From contig CANTAL010000142.1 in the NCBI GenBank assembly GCA_947650365.1, positions 731,001 to 795,000 of the forward strand: a stretch of 64,000 nucleotides of DNA. The letters are read 5' to 3'. Shown piece by piece: positions 28,259 to 38,846 of the stretch. Numbering within the stretch: position 1 is the first letter of the stretch; the number at the start of each line of letters is the position of its first letter. The translations under genes were made by a program, and so were the position numbers. Below the pieces are notes generated by a model. That model was not told where the DNA came from. It searched no databases and worked only from the letters and a program-made list of their open reading frames with translations. The DNA comes from Chamaelirium japonicum. Its lineage: Eukaryota > Streptophyta > Magnoliopsida > Liliales > Melanthiaceae.

Positions 28259-28391
28259 CTATATATATATATATATATATATATATATATATATATATAT
28301 ATATATATATATATATATATATATATATATATATATATATATATATATATATATATATATATATATATATATATATATATATATATATATA
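28259..28391. repeat. (TA)n microsatellite
   Basis: About 66 uninterrupted TA units between two A-type element ends. Confidence 0.98.
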
Positions 28392-28602
28392 TTGCGGCGG
28401 GTAACATGCGGCACCCCCTTCGGGGGTATTTTTGGGATTTTTTTTTTTGGGGATTGATCACCCACCCTTGGATTGGACACACAAAAAATTTCAGCCCGAT
28501 CCAAGACCTATAGGCCGTCCAAATGTGTTGATCAAAATGGCAAAAAAATTGAACGACCGATAAAAGATCAACACATTTGGACGGCCTACAAGTCTTGGAT
28601 CG
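28392..28602. mobile_element. A-type palindromic element, right arm truncated
   Basis: Starts TTGCGGCGGGTAACATGCGG and includes GGCCGTCCAAATGTGTTGAT and its complement around the centre. The right arm stops after AGTCTTGGATCGG and a short TATATATA follows. Confidence 0.75.
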
Positions 28603-28609
28603 GTATATA

Positions 28610-28985
28610 TAGAGTAGTGATACATTGCGGCGGGTAACATGCGGGCTTAACGTGCGGCGACCCCCTTCGGGGGTATTTTCGGGATTTTTTTTTTTGGGGG
28701 GGATTGATCACCCACCCTTGGATTGGACACACAAAAAATTTAAGCCCGATCCAAGACCTATAGGCCGTCCAAATGTGTTGATCAAAATGGCAAAAAAATT
28801 GAACGATCGATAAAAGATCAACACATTTGGACGACCTACAAGTCTTGGATCGAGCTGAAATTTTTTGTGTGTCCAATCCAAGGGTGGGTGATCAATCCCC
28901 AAAAAAAAAAATCCCAAAAATACCCCCGAAGGGGGTCACCGCACGTTAAGCCCGCATGTTACCCGCCGCAATGTATCACTACTCT
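28610..28985. mobile_element. A-type palindromic element, full
   Basis: About 375-bp nearly perfect palindrome. Left tip AGTAGTGATACATTGCGGCG, right tip its complement. Arms carry CCCCCTTCGGGGG hairpins and a GATCACCCACCCTTGGATTG segment. (TA) tracts flank both ends; no coding. Confidence 0.88.
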
Positions 28986-29135
28986 ATATATATATATATA
29001 TATATATATATATATATATATATATATATATATATATATATATATATATATATATATATATATATATATATATATATATATATATATATATATATATATA
29101 TATATATATATATATATATATATATATATATATAT
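28986..29135. repeat. (TA)n microsatellite
   Basis: About 75 TA units between the A-type and B-type elements. Confidence 0.98.
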
Positions 29136-29532
29136 GGGTCAAGATCGGATGACCCAGCAAAATTTGACCCAGCAAATAACCCAGCACCCTTTAAGGCACC
29201 TAGAGGTTTTAGAATGGGCTAATTTTTTGTAGGCATGTTGTGTATGATATGTTGATCATCCTCACAAAAAATCAGCCCATTCTAAAACCTATAGGTGCAT
29301 CAAATAAGATCTTCAAATCAACGGTTAAAATTGATAGTAAAAAACCGTTGATTTGAAGAGCGCATTCGATACACCTAGAGGTTTTAGAATGGGCTAATTT
29401 TTTGTGAGGATGATCAACATACCATAGACGACATGTCTACAAAAAATCAGCCCATTCTATAACCTCTAAGTGCATCAAAGAATGCTGGGTTATTAATGGG
29501 TCAAAATTTGCTGGGTCATCCGATCCTGACCC
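29136..29532. mobile_element. Four-module palindromic element, B-type tips, copy 1
   Basis: 397-bp palindrome. Tips GGGTCAAGATCGGATGACCC and GATCCTGACCC; subtips repeat GACCCAGCA. The core has CCTAGAGGTTTTAGAATGGG twice forward and twice as its complement, in the order forward, reverse, forward, reverse. The centre is AACGGTTAAAATTGATAG. Confidence 0.88.
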
Positions 29533-29547
29533 TATATATATAATATA
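29533..29547. repeat. Short TA spacer
   Basis: A short imperfect TA tract separates two B-type elements. Confidence 0.8.
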
Positions 29548-29895
29548 CTGAGATGACCCAGCAAATAACCCAGCACCTTAGAGGTTTTAGAATGGGCTAA
29601 TTTTTTGTAGACATGTTGTCTATATTATGTTAATCATCCTCACAAAAAACAAGCACATTCTAAAACCTCTAGGTGCATCAAATGTGTTCTTCAAATCATC
29701 AGTTAAAATTGACAGTAGAAAATCGTTGATTTGAAGAGCGCATTTGATGCACCTAGACGCTTTAGAATGTGTTGATTTTTTATGAGGATGATCAACATAC
29801 CATAAACAACATGTCTACAAAAAATCAGTCCATTCTAAAACCTCTAGGTAGATCAAATGGTGCTGGGTTATTGCTGGGTCAGCCGATCCCGACCC
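29548..29895. mobile_element. Four-module palindromic element, B-type tips, copy 2
   Basis: About 348 bp with the same core and GACCCAGCAAATAACCCAGC tips; the left tip is shorter (starts CTGAGATGACCC). The right end GATCCCGACCC matches B-type. Confidence 0.85.
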
Positions 29896-29952
29896 ATATG
29901 CACTCTGCGGTACAGTGCCGCACGTACCGCATGCCGCATTATAGCATGCCCC
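29896..29952. mobile_element. Right arm of a C-type GC-rich palindrome
   Basis: GTACCGCATGCCGCATTATA and following GCATGCCCC are the complement of the left arm at 30209. The (TA)n array lies between these two arms. Confidence 0.7.
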
Positions 29953-30208
29953 TATATATATATATATATATATATATATATATATATATATATATATATA
30001 TATATATATATATATATATATATATATATATATATATATATATATATATATATATATATATATATATATATATATATATATATATATATATATATATATA
30101 TATATATATATATATATATATATATATATATATATATATATATATATATATATATATATATATATATATATATATATATATATATATATATATATATATA
30201 TATATATA
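29953..30208. repeat. (TA)n microsatellite, 256 bp
   Basis: About 128 uninterrupted TA units, the longest array in the window. Confidence 0.98.
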
Positions 30209-36220: not shown

Positions 36221-36354
36221 AGGCATGCTAGAATGCGGCTGCAGTACGTGCGGCACCGCACGTCAGCCATCTGATGCACGACTGCGTGCATGCGATGCAC
36301 ATAGCGAATGCATCAGACGGTTGCGGTGCGATGCCACACGTACCGCATGCCGCA
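36221..36354. mobile_element. C-type GC-rich palindrome, copy 3
   Basis: 134 bp, AGGCATGCTAGAATGCGG to ACGTACCGCATGCCGCA, nearly identical to the copy at 37620. Confidence 0.87.
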
Positions 36355-36561
36355 TATATATATATATATATATATATATATATATATATATATATATATA
36401 TATATATATATATATATATATATATATATATATATATATATATATATATATATATATATATATATATATATATATATATATATATATATATATATATATA
36501 TATATATATATATATATATATATATATATATATATATATATATATATATATATATATATAT
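36355..36561. repeat. (TA)n microsatellite
   Basis: About 103 TA units. Confidence 0.98.
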
Positions 36562-36945
36562 GGGAAATGAGTTCCTATGACATGTCATAGGGAGTACCCT
36601 ATGACATATGGTGAGTTAGTAACCCTAGAATATTTAGAATGTTCTGAATTTTTATAAAGATGATCACCCTATCTTAGATAGGACCCCCGCAAAAAATCGC
36701 CTCATTCTAAAACTTCTAGAGGCATCAAATATGATTTTCAATTTAACGGTTAAAATGGATGGCCGATAAAGCTTCTAGCATTTGATGCCCCAACAAGTTT
36801 TAGAATGTTTTGATTTTTTGTGGACATTCTATCTAAGGTAAGATGATCACCCTCAAAAAAATTCAGCACATTCTAAGCATTCTAGCATTACTAATTCACC
36901 ATATGTCATAGGGTACTCCCTATGACATGTCATATGAACCCAGCC
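36562..36945. mobile_element. Four-module palindromic element, I-type tips
   Basis: About 384 bp. Left tip contains TATGACATGTCATAGGGAGT and the right tip its complement, itself palindromic. Core modules are like CCCTAGAATATTTAGAATG and complements; centre AACGGTTAAAATGGATGG. Confidence 0.85.
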
Positions 36946-37022
36946 CTCTCTCTCTCTCTCTCTCTCTCTATATATATATATATATATATATATATATATA
37001 TATATATATATATATATATATA
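36946..37022. repeat. (CT)n followed by (TA)n
   Basis: About 23 bp CT and 53 bp TA. Confidence 0.97.
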
Positions 37023-37410
37023 GGGTCAGGTTCAATGGACACTGTTTTTGCACTTAAATTTTTACACCGATTTACAAATCAACTAGATAGAGGTTTCAGA
37101 ATTTCTTGATTTATTGTGAGCATAATCACCTTGACTTAGATAGCACGTCCACAAAAAATCAGCACATTCTAAAGCCTCCTAGTACATCAAAACTAAAAGG
37201 CTTTATCAACCGTCCATTTTAATCGTTAATTTGAAGAGCACAAATAATAAGTCTAGAGGCTTTAGAATGTGCTGATTTTTTGTAGATGTGTTATCTAAGA
37301 CAAGATGATTATGCTCACAAAAAATCAAGAAATTCTGAAACCTCTATCTAATGGTTTGAAAATCGGTGTAAAAAATTGAGTTCAAAAATAGTGTCCATTG
37401 AACCTGACCC
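37023..37410. mobile_element. Four-module palindromic element, J-type tips
   Basis: 388 bp. Tips GGGTCAGGTTCAATGGACAC and GTCCATTGAACCTGACCC. Modules with AGAGGTTTCAGAATTTCTTG and complements in alternating order. Centre CAACCGTCCATTTTAATCG. Confidence 0.87.
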
Positions 37411-37619
37411 ATATATATATATATATATATATATATATATATATATATATATATATATATATATATATATATATATATATATATATATATATATATATAT
37501 ATATATATATATATATATATATATATATATATATATATATATATATATATATATATATATATATATATATATATATATATATATATATATATATATATAT
37601 ATATATATATATATATATA
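37411..37619. repeat. (TA)n microsatellite
   Basis: About 104 TA units. Confidence 0.98.
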
Positions 37620-37753
37620 GGCATGCTAGAATGCGGCATGCAGTACGTACGGCACCGCACGTCGGCCATCTGATGCACGACTGCGTGCATGCGATGCACG
37701 TAGCGAATGCATCAGACGGTTGCGGTGCGATGCCACACGTACCGCATGCCGCA
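37620..37753. mobile_element. C-type GC-rich palindrome, copy 4
   Basis: 134 bp, GGCATGCTAGAATGCGGCAT to CGTACCGCATGCCGCA; differs from the copy at 36221 by a handful of bases. Confidence 0.88.
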
Positions 37754-37994
37754 TATATATATATATATATATATATATATATATATATATATATATATAT
37801 ATATATATATATATATATATATATATATATATATATATATATATATATATATATATATATATATATATATATATATATATATATATATATATATATATAT
37901 ATATATATATATATATATATATATATATATATATATATATATATATATATATATATATATATATATATATATATATATATATATATATATATAT
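37754..37994. repeat. (TA)n microsatellite, 241 bp
   Basis: About 120 uninterrupted TA units. Confidence 0.98.
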
Positions 37995-38725
37995 GGGGAC
38001 GGGGAGCCTGGACCTCAGGTGCAGCGGGGACGCTGCACCCGTGTCCTGCGCGCGCGGTACGTGGGCGTCCTGGTGCGAAATCTGATCGGAAATACCCGTA
38101 CGAGACCGCATACGCAGTGGACGAACAGCAGCCGTCCGATCGGCTGAACGAACGGATCCGTGAGCACCCGGCCTCGCTGTTACTGTAGCGGGCACAGTAA
38201 CAGCGAGAATCGCTGCACGGGTGAATCCCATCCGTTCGTTCAGCCGATCGGGCGGCTGAAAACAAAAATCGCGGTTATTGTAGCCGCTACAGTAACCACG
38301 AGTTTGTTTTCAGCCGTTCGATCGTCAGGATCCAACGGATTGAATTCTTTTGGGATTCAATTCACCGTTCGGTGAATACAGTCCGTTGGATCCTGCGATC
38401 GGACGGCTGAAAGCAATCTCGCGGTTATTGTAGCGGCTACAGTAACCGCGATTTTTGTTTTCAGCCGCCCGATCGGCTGAACGAACGGATGGGATTCACC
38501 TGTGCAGTGATTCTCGCTGTTACTGTGCCCACTACAGTAACAGCGAGGCCGGGTGCTCACAGGTCCGTTCGTTCAGCCGATCGAACGGCTGTTGTTTGTC
38601 CACTGCGTATGCGGTCTCGTACGGGTATTTCAGATCAGATTTCGCATCGGGACGCCCACATGGCGCGCGCGCAGGACACGGGTGCAGCTTCCCCGCTGCA
38701 CCTGAGGTCCAGGCTCCCCATCCCC
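37995..38725. mobile_element. 731-bp palindrome with nested GTAGC hairpins
   Basis: The two halves mirror each other about position 38360. Tips GGGGACGGGGAGCCTGGAC and its complement, of the same kind as the E-type element. Inside each arm are two hairpins of the form TTACTGTAGC...GCTACAGTAA (about 38178, 38275, 38421 and 38515) and CAGCCGATCG/CGATCGGCTG pairs. Unlike the four-module elements it lacks the CCTAGAGGTTTTAGAA core. No coding; long open frames seen here are mirrored arm sequence. Confidence 0.9.
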
Positions 38726-38846
38726 TATATATATATATATATATATATATATATATATATATATATATATATATATATATATATATATATATATATATAT
38801 ATATATATATATATATATATATATATATATATATATATATATATAT
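38726..38846. repeat. (TA)n microsatellite
   Basis: About 60 TA units. Confidence 0.98.

Follow-up and report, generated by a model that had tools for sequence, protein, structure and literature searches.

Several families of short transposons that occupy TA microsatellites have been described in plants (PMC5907723, PMC8449440 and PMC4486113). SaTar elements of guayule, rice, sorghum and citrus are non-autonomous MULEs in TA microsatellites, with a length of about 400-1700 bp in guayule (PMC5907723). In pineapple, Ac-mMITE-1 and Ac-mMITE-2 are MITEs that lie in (TA)n and are clustered through adjacent insertion (PMC8449440), while MuTAnT and AutoMuTAnT of Medicago truncatula are foldback MULEs that target TA repeats with a 9-nt duplication (PMC4486113). 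Rice Micron, a group of short elements in (TA)n, is listed as rSaTar2, a non-autonomous MULE (PMC5907723, PMC4486113). These accounts describe the kind of element but leave its mechanism open. Here, we analyzed a 64,000-nucleotide stretch of Chamaelirium japonicum DNA (the window), and by structure and description its palindromes belong to this published kind, the microsatellite-targeted non-autonomous MULEs; the likeness to Micron, SaTar and Ac-mMITE is one of description.

The first-pass annotation had recorded a cluster of palindromes and (TA)n arrays between positions 28259 and 38846, with tracts mostly of 100-256 bp. The cluster is real, comprising 13 palindromic elements with arm likeness of 76-90% (some outer boundaries were placed by eye) and 14 perfect (TA)n runs of at least 20 bp that total 1934 bp, of which 11 reach at least 100 bp, the longest is 256 bp and the remainder are 22, 41 and 54 bp, all lengths being as assembled. 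Outside this interval, the window holds only four (TA)n runs of at least 20 bp; a further unit of array, foldback element (53819-54172) and array lies at 53786-54272, beyond the reported stretch. For comparison, we sampled 22 regions of 10 kb: two came from C154, the contig of the window, and the other 20 were taken at a single fixed offset from contigs C5-C385, among which C5 alone reaches chromosome size. Their 207,500 unmasked bases contain nine such arrays, so the array density of the cluster is about 30 times that of the sample. Six of the nine sample arrays lie within 70 bp of an element of a window type, although the sample is small.

The first sub-cluster begins with a 133-bp array (28260-28392), whose left neighbor (28231-28259) is a fragment of the element that follows. 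That element (28393-28984, outer sequence GAGTAGTGATACATTGCGGCGGG) is compound, a rearranged double made of two partial copies, and it contains a fuller palindrome at 28612-28984 with arms of 89% likeness. After a 151-bp array (28985-29135) come a foldback element with the tip GGGTCAAGATCGG (29136-29532, flanks T..T, odd phase by eye) and a member of the same family (86%) with eroded ends (29554-29897), and then an end fragment of a 143-bp family (29905-29952) lies to the left of the 256-bp array (29953-30208). A 143-bp-family element (30209-30344) is followed by a 119-bp array (30345-30463) and (GA)17, a foldback element (30500-30851), a 22-bp array (30852-30873), a 400-bp foldback element with the MULE-family-like tip GGGGGCGGGGAGCCTG (30874-31273, flanks A..A, odd phase by eye), a 41-bp array (31274-31314) with (GA)n, a second 143-bp-family element (31350-31461) and a 143-bp array (31462-31604). 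The interval between the two sub-clusters (31609-35620) is a separate repeat; the part at 32600-34700, used to look for a genome counterpart of the window, turned out to be dispersed.

The second sub-cluster runs from a 103-bp array (35621-35723) through a foldback element (35724-36089, flanks T..T, odd phase by eye), a 132-bp array (36090-36221), a 143-bp-family element (36222-36353), a 208-bp array (36354-36561), a foldback element followed by (TC)n (36562-36942) and a 54-bp array (36969-37022) to a 388-bp foldback element with the tip GGGTCAGGTTCAATGG (37023-37410, flanks A..A, odd phase). It continues with a 209-bp array (37411-37619), a 143-bp-family element (37620-37752) with 97% identity to the copy at 36222-36353, a 242-bp array (37753-37994), a 731-bp foldback element with the tip GGGGACGGGGAGCCTG (37995-38725, flanks T..T, odd phase) and a 122-bp array (38726-38847). 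It had first been noted that the palindromes each begin and end at TA, which does not hold directly for all of them; the exceptions are the elements at 30500 and 31350, which are separated from TA by (GA)n, the element at 36562, separated by (TC)n, and those at 29136 and 29554, which lie about 20 bp apart. Edge (GA)n/(TC)n are also found in Ac-mMITE, where they are ascribed to slippage (PMC8449440).

The palindromes had been taken to be unrelated types, which did not hold for all of them: eight of the 14 compared have a common interior (among them the elements at 30500, 35724 and 36562), and the 731-bp and 400-bp elements have a common tip, which also resembles that of a MULE family described below. 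Compared with longer genome copies, the 132-136-bp copies at 30209, 36222 and 37620 have a right terminal repeat that is about 10-13 bp too short. The terminal inverted repeats fold back: the 388-bp element folds 31.6 standard deviations below the mean of 100 shuffles (z = -31.6). Because nearly the whole length of one element is paired in its DNA fold, strand asymmetry was examined in 14 elements; G-T pairs and strand energies differed modestly and in both directions, and no selection of one strand was seen. Coding capacity was judged from the list of open reading frames only. The mixed families stand in a non-nested row in which no window element is seen to interrupt another, and among 60 sampled copies, picked as near full length, 42 have a second window-type element within 350-450 bp. 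Mixed-family, non-nested rows are likewise a feature of SaTar (PMC5907723). Several palindrome types in one TA landscape are thus not as unusual as first supposed: the cluster is not unique within the genome, the same architecture occurs at many other loci, and it has been published in guayule, rice, sorghum, citrus and pineapple.

The outcome that the first-pass annotation had named as a refutation, genome copies mostly without TA flanks, did not arise. Of the 1503 tips counted genome-wide for the 388-bp family, 1375 are bordered on the outside by twelve A/T bases, with one mismatch allowed, and the reversed control gave no hits. TA of at least 10 bp is present on both sides of 18/21 copies of the 388-bp family and 19/21 copies of the 731-bp family, the fetched copies being chiefly the top-ranking matches for their family. 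The base beside the array was C in 85 and G in 15 of 100 array ends listed and transcribed by hand, and among arrays of at least 34 bp about 52,600 left ends genome-wide adjoin G or C (33,189 + 19,412). Related empty sites were found for the comparison of filled and empty sites, namely a paralogous stretch (L008) and copies of a host repeat. Taken together, these results support the view that the palindromes are transposons inserted into TA repeats.

Within a dinucleotide array, a target duplication leaves its trace in the phase of the flanks. We compared the base before each element with the base after it; equal bases were scored as odd, which corresponds to a direct duplication of odd length. 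The phase was odd in 20 and even in none of 21 copies of the 388-bp family, and odd in 18 and even in two of 21 copies of the 731-bp family, with one copy not scorable in each; both counts take in the window copies and copy L035, although L035 lies outside arrays. Eight further full-length pairs with printed flanks, whose letters were transcribed by hand, gave seven odd and one even. Overall, 45 of 48 scorable copies are odd (P = 7e-11 versus random phase), and 43 of 45 are odd when L046, L051 and L058, with at least three tip mismatches, are left out (P = 3e-11). The even phase of L051 results from a lost G in its tip, and the odd call of L046 depends on a damaged right tip; L043 and C1:59875201-59875588 are even without explanation and count against the odd rule. 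The flanks A..A (17/38) and T..T (21/38) are nearly equal in frequency, which indicates that the flank belongs to the target and not to the element. L035 is flanked by the 9-bp direct repeat ATGTTTACA and is the only copy in which the duplication was read directly; its flanks, rejoined, match the paralogous empty stretch at 39/41 bases across the junction, a short match. Duplications of 9/10 bp also flank non-array copies in pineapple (PMC8449440). The odd phase speaks in favor of cut-and-paste insertion with a duplication of odd length, here 9 bp.

The phase also weighs on other explanations of the TA flanks. Nearly all examined insertions adjoin TA, as would be expected of Tc1/mariner (Stowaway-like) elements with TA as the target duplication, but such a duplication makes the left flank end in A and the right start with T, an even phase, against 45/48 odd; in addition, the non-array copy has a 9-bp duplication and MULE domains are present in the long family matched by its tip, so this identity, tried by its TA dinucleotide duplication, was rejected and retains almost no probability. 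That the arrays are parts of the elements, carried in their terminal repeats, would account for an array beside nearly every copy examined, yet inverted symmetry gives an even phase, A..A and T..T both occur and L035 has no array, which makes this extremely improbable. The proposal made for guayule, in which circular intermediates recombine homologously with TA filler between their ends, was put forward because many of the flanks there could not be explained by a duplication (PMC5907723). Non-nested clusters and the many guayule flanks at odds with a 10-bp duplication agree with it, but random filler lengths predict a random phase, and 45/48 odd would need filler of nearly always odd length; we therefore regard it as very unlikely here. 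Assembly is difficult in long dinucleotide arrays, and C154, which contains the window, is a small contig of 824 kb, so that misassembly might have created the arrays or their adjacency; against this, contigs of chromosome size (C1-C12) show the same architecture and the phase is consistent, which random misassembly would not yield, and we give misassembly only a minute chance. The odd phase thus contradicts a TA duplication and array-carrying inverted repeats, and argues against recombination with random filler.

The first-pass annotation had suggested that a shared transposase targets TA repeats. Insertion into TA was borne out, and a tip-matched family of long elements (about 7-10.5 kb) that carry MULE domains also lies in TA arrays, but this partner was seen for one tip group only, GGGG(A/G)CGGGG. 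The terminal stretch L104:1-357 has 95 genome matches, which were reduced by hand to 40 places. A PF10551 domain lies within 10 kb of 21 of these places, against 0.002 expected per place (150 scored domains were used, with coordinates transcribed by hand), and seven inverted pairs of the terminus enclose a domain at a spacing of 7.4-10.5 kb. Long copies on C9, C10 and C11 have 7-8 kb between their inverted ends. Of the family ends examined, 14/16 lie next to TA of 10 bp or more; the copy on C1 has a stop within the domain. The MULE tip matches the 400-bp element at 38/48 and the 731-bp element at 34/48 bases, with none of 1000 shuffles as good. The GGGTCAGG tip shows a slight likeness to it (3/1000 shuffles as good) and the GGCATGC tip none (96/1000 shuffles as good); the comparison left out the GAGTAGTG type.

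These findings place the elements beside the described systems. Terminal inverted repeats, foldback structure, TA flanks and mixed non-nested rows are all present, a duplication of the 9-10 bp class outside arrays is present in one copy, and a tip match to a MULE that itself lies in microsatellites holds for the GGGG(A/G)CGGGG group only. SaTar likewise has MULE relatives with similar TIRs in microsatellites, but in guayule the duplications are 10 bp long and many flanks conflict with cut-and-paste (PMC5907723), whereas here the single duplication seen directly is 9 bp and the phase agrees with cut-and-paste. The pineapple account reports no autonomous partner (PMC8449440), in contrast to the tip-matched family of one tip group here. 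MuTAnT resembles the present elements in its variable number of terminal G/C and in a related transposase-bearing element in TA, but is one family of 218 copies, whose arrays in the reference average 11.7 TA units (PMC4486113), whereas we find several families and window arrays of up to 128 units. When tips of the 143-bp family are set against the MuTAnT tip mask GGGGTTTGCTAGAACA (PMC4486113), 11 or 12 of 16 places agree, which does not amount to a homology test.

We conclude that the palindromes are very probably non-autonomous foldback MULEs of the Mutator superfamily, cut and pasted into (TA)n by a MULE transposase acting in trans. The longer relatives would supply this putative transposase, and the other tip groups may have MULE partners of their own. 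After excising an element, the transposase would open a (TA)n tract by the usual staggered cut, here of 9 bp, and insert the element there, and the duplication would vanish into the TA repeat. Each insertion would split the tract, and the same or other families could then enter the remaining TA, giving a row of arrays and elements, the insertion order in the window being likewise presumed. Tract lengths would later shift by slippage in 2-bp steps.

Whether the arrays precede the elements can be examined at a host repeat that has a TA tract of its own. Three different elements (L042, L055 and L084) all lie in the (TA)n tract of this one repeat, and 19 of the 20 other copies retrieved have an unoccupied tract, so the TA tract was there before insertion at this host repeat. 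The native tracts are 13-83 bp long (median 27, n = 19). The first-pass annotation had offered as its alternative that the elements extend TA arrays. It is possible, if somewhat doubtful, that elements enter short TA stretches, that the arrays then grow and that the elements thereby make most of the long TA landscape. The unoccupied tracts are short compared with the longer occupied flanks (3+58 bp at L042, 139+41 at L055 and 51 on the visible side of L084), the TA lengths of the near-identical duplicates L075 and L076 are 6 and 8 bp apart, and TA is longer around insertions than at empty sites in published cases (PMC5907723, citing maize TAFT; PMC4486113). On the other hand, 83-bp tracts exist without an insert, longer tracts may be better targets and the occupied sites seen are three.

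The kind of element is thus published, and scoring phase in dinucleotide arrays turns the mechanism left open into a simple count. We found no such phase test in the accessible SaTar, Ac-mMITE and MuTAnT accounts, in whose text the words 'phase' (except in a species name), 'odd' and 'register' are absent, or in literature listings, which cover few subscription papers. The host repeat, for which a first look gave 250 candidate copies, combines a native TA tract with three element types and lends itself directly to the study of array growth after insertion. More speculatively, and with the balance against it, MULEs with a 9-bp cut may insert into short TA, the flanks may grow and the longer arrays may attract more MULEs, as self-feeding landing pads; transposition would in that case have produced most of the long arrays, which number roughly 52,000. 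If true, the phase of each array would be a lasting record of the duplication length, and the mechanism would be readable from any such genome.

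The window corresponds to C154:731001-795000. Within its positions 28259-38846, Tandem Repeats Finder together with direct scanning detected 14 (TA)n arrays that are 20 bp or longer and add up to 1934 bp. Between these arrays lie 13 palindromic elements of 112 to 731 bp (boundaries set by us), with arm identities of 76-90%; one of them is a compound double element. The alternation of array, element and array described in the first-pass annotation was borne out, with corrections, among them that some palindromes do not touch TA directly. The palindromes had also been regarded as several unrelated types, a view that the all-against-all comparison of the 13 elements and the palindrome at 53819-54172 does not bear out for all of them. 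Among the matches listed, eight of these 14 (29136, 29554, 30500, 30874, 35724, 36562, 37023 and 53819) share an interior and therefore belong together despite different tips (the outermost terminal-repeat sequences), four (30209, 31350, 36222 and 37620) form the 143-bp type, and 28393 and 37995 are two separate types. In addition, the outer 45 bp are common to 37995 and 30874 (80% identity).

At 30463-30496, 31314-31340 and 36942-36968, (GA)n 5′ or (TC)n 3′ of elements lies between the tip and the TA array, as it also does in several genomic copies (among L063-L082). These runs look as if the GA/TC end of the element itself had slipped, and they have been reported at element edges in pineapple too. 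A 152-bp tandem repeat at 38995-39389 contains palindromes such as GTTACTGTAGCGGCTACAGTAAC and shows 70-76% similarity with the interior of the 731-bp element (37995-38725). The two sub-clusters are separated by an insert of about 4 kb (31609-35620) with TA arrays on either side, and three other long copies of its 32600-34700 part (95-96%) were found on C52, C8 and C9. On the minus strand its ends are TC... / ...CTAG next to T, a pattern that may point to a Helitron; similar edges occur in three other fetched stretches (L040, L044 and L052). Outside the cluster, the window contains a 181-bp tandem satellite at 1-2429 (8.3 and 5.1 copies, the second array inverted from about 1505) and, at 4351-6213 and 15082-18957, CACTA tnp2 transposase remains and a Ty1/copia polyprotein. 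The latter two, together with genome size and make-up, suggest a plant.

Copies were searched for in the assembly (1.52 Gb, 3253 contigs, with C1-C12 of chromosome size). The 388-bp element (37023-37410) gave 3344 first-look candidates, and the best 40, window included, were 97-100% identical over 383-388 bp; the 143-bp type (2641 candidates, 40 scored) and the 731-bp type (1683 candidates, 40 scored) are more divergent. With at most one mismatch, the 20-base tip of the 388-bp element occurred 752 + 751 times genome-wide, while its reversed control occurred 0 times. Adding twelve A/T outside the tip, with at most one mismatch over the whole, retained 682 + 693 occurrences (91.5% of tips), and all 39 printed flanks of these tips were pure TA. 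TA-less copies are therefore not the majority in this family, and the proposed association with TA withstood this check. For each of two types, TA on either side was recorded in 21 copies, namely the window copy and 20 fetched ones; the latter, mostly best matches, were drawn from the 39 other best for the 388-bp type and chosen likewise for the 731-bp type. Both sides carried TA of 10 bp or more in 18 copies of the 388-bp type and in 19 of the 731-bp type. Another window-type element was found within 350-450 bp of 42 of the 60 sampled copies (15/20, 16/20 and 11/20). Two stretches, on a small contig (L075, C178:394096-394928) and a chromosome (L076, C11:46441211-46442043), have flanks 99.6-99.7% identical around the same element and are possibly two haplotypes; their TA runs are 43 vs 49 and 32 vs 40 bp and their TC run 23 vs 31.

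One dispersed repeat provides the flanks of both a 388-bp element (L042) and a 731-bp element (L055). Used as a query, the right flank of L042 yielded 250 candidates; 40 were scored, and 20 of the other 39 were fetched. In 19 of these 20 no element occupied the site, whose native TA run measured 13-83 bp (median 27), and therefore the TA tract preceded insertion. In the remaining copy, L084, the same site is filled by a third element, whose tip differs from that of the 400-bp type (30874-31273) but whose interior matches part of it at 95% identity; thus this tract was used by three element types. The occupied TA flanks are longer (3+58 in L042, 139+41 in L055 and 51 on the side seen in L084), and these three cases are compatible both with arrays that grew once an element had landed and with elements that favour long tracts. 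In L083-L102 the host repeat starts near CTATGAAGCACGGGTACTGG, and in L098 its own 5′ edge adjoins another TA array.

In copy L035, which lies outside TA, the 9-bp sequence ATGTTTACA is present at each side. A related empty site in L008 spans the junction of the rejoined L035 flanks with 39 of 41 bases matching; the match is short because the surroundings are internally repeated. Inside a TA array, a duplication can be read only by parity: with an odd length, the last base before the element equals the first base after it, while these bases differ with an even length (TA of Tc1/mariner, or 10 bp) or when arrays lie within inverted repeats. The phase was odd in 20, even in 0 and not scorable in 1 copy of the 388-bp type; the 731-bp type gave 18, 2 and 1, and eight further full-length 388-bp copies from printed rows gave 7 odd and 1 even. 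In total, 45 of 48 copies were odd, L035 counted in, or 43 of 45 once L046, L051 and L058, with at least 3 tip mismatches, were dropped. L051 is even because a G was lost from its tip; the other even copies are L043 and C1:59875201. Among 75 tips, the outermost base departs from the consensus in 6, in 5 of them to the base continuing the TA run, and inner positions have 0-2 mismatches each, apart from positions 7 and 22, where there are 5 apiece. Insertion by random-filler recombination is an alternative route, and the odd phase count speaks against it and for ordinary 9-bp cut-and-paste.

For a candidate source of transposase, PF10551 (MULE, Mutator-like element) gave 1214 candidates; 150 were scored, and in many of these the open frame exceeds 700 aa. 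One domain, at C1:5004582, sits between listed TA arrays, and the terminal tip in L104, a stretch inside the right-hand array, is identical to that of the 400-bp element at 38 of 48 positions and to that of the 731-bp element at 34 of 48. Equally good matches arose in 0 of 1000 shuffles for these two, compared to 3 for the 388-bp tip and 96 for the 143-bp tip. The terminal 357 bp of L104 has an inverted mate at C1:4998515-4998905 (76%), which makes the C1 long element about 9.2 kb. In the 40 candidates scored for the same 357 bp there were 95 matches, which were condensed manually to 40 places, and a scored MULE domain lay at most 10 kb away at 21 of these (expected 0.002 each). Seven inverted terminal pairs spaced 7.4-10.5 kb enclose a domain; in two of them (C1:62.43 Mb and C9:31.26 Mb) the terminal matches are weaker or incomplete. 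Of 16 family ends chosen for inspection, 14 adjoin TA of 10 bp or more, and at the C1 locus the long element shares a single 32-bp TA run with an element of the 400-bp type. The phase was odd too in the three long copies with both ends seen clean (C1, C11 and C2, the C2 pair without a scored domain). The C1 copy has a stop within the MULE domain; other domains, such as C10:9127426 with a 759-aa frame, have none there. Besides this candidate partner of the 400- and 731-bp elements, no MULE partner was identified for the remaining tip groups.

Published work describes rows of non-autonomous MULEs inside TA microsatellites as SaTar elements, whose MULE relatives are also located in microsatellites (PMC5907723), and as Ac-mMITEs (PMC8449440); the Medicago family MuTAnT has a duplication of 9 nt and a relative that bears a transposase (PMC4486113). 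Compared by description, the window elements are of the same kind. To this published picture our results add the phase count and a host repeat used three times.
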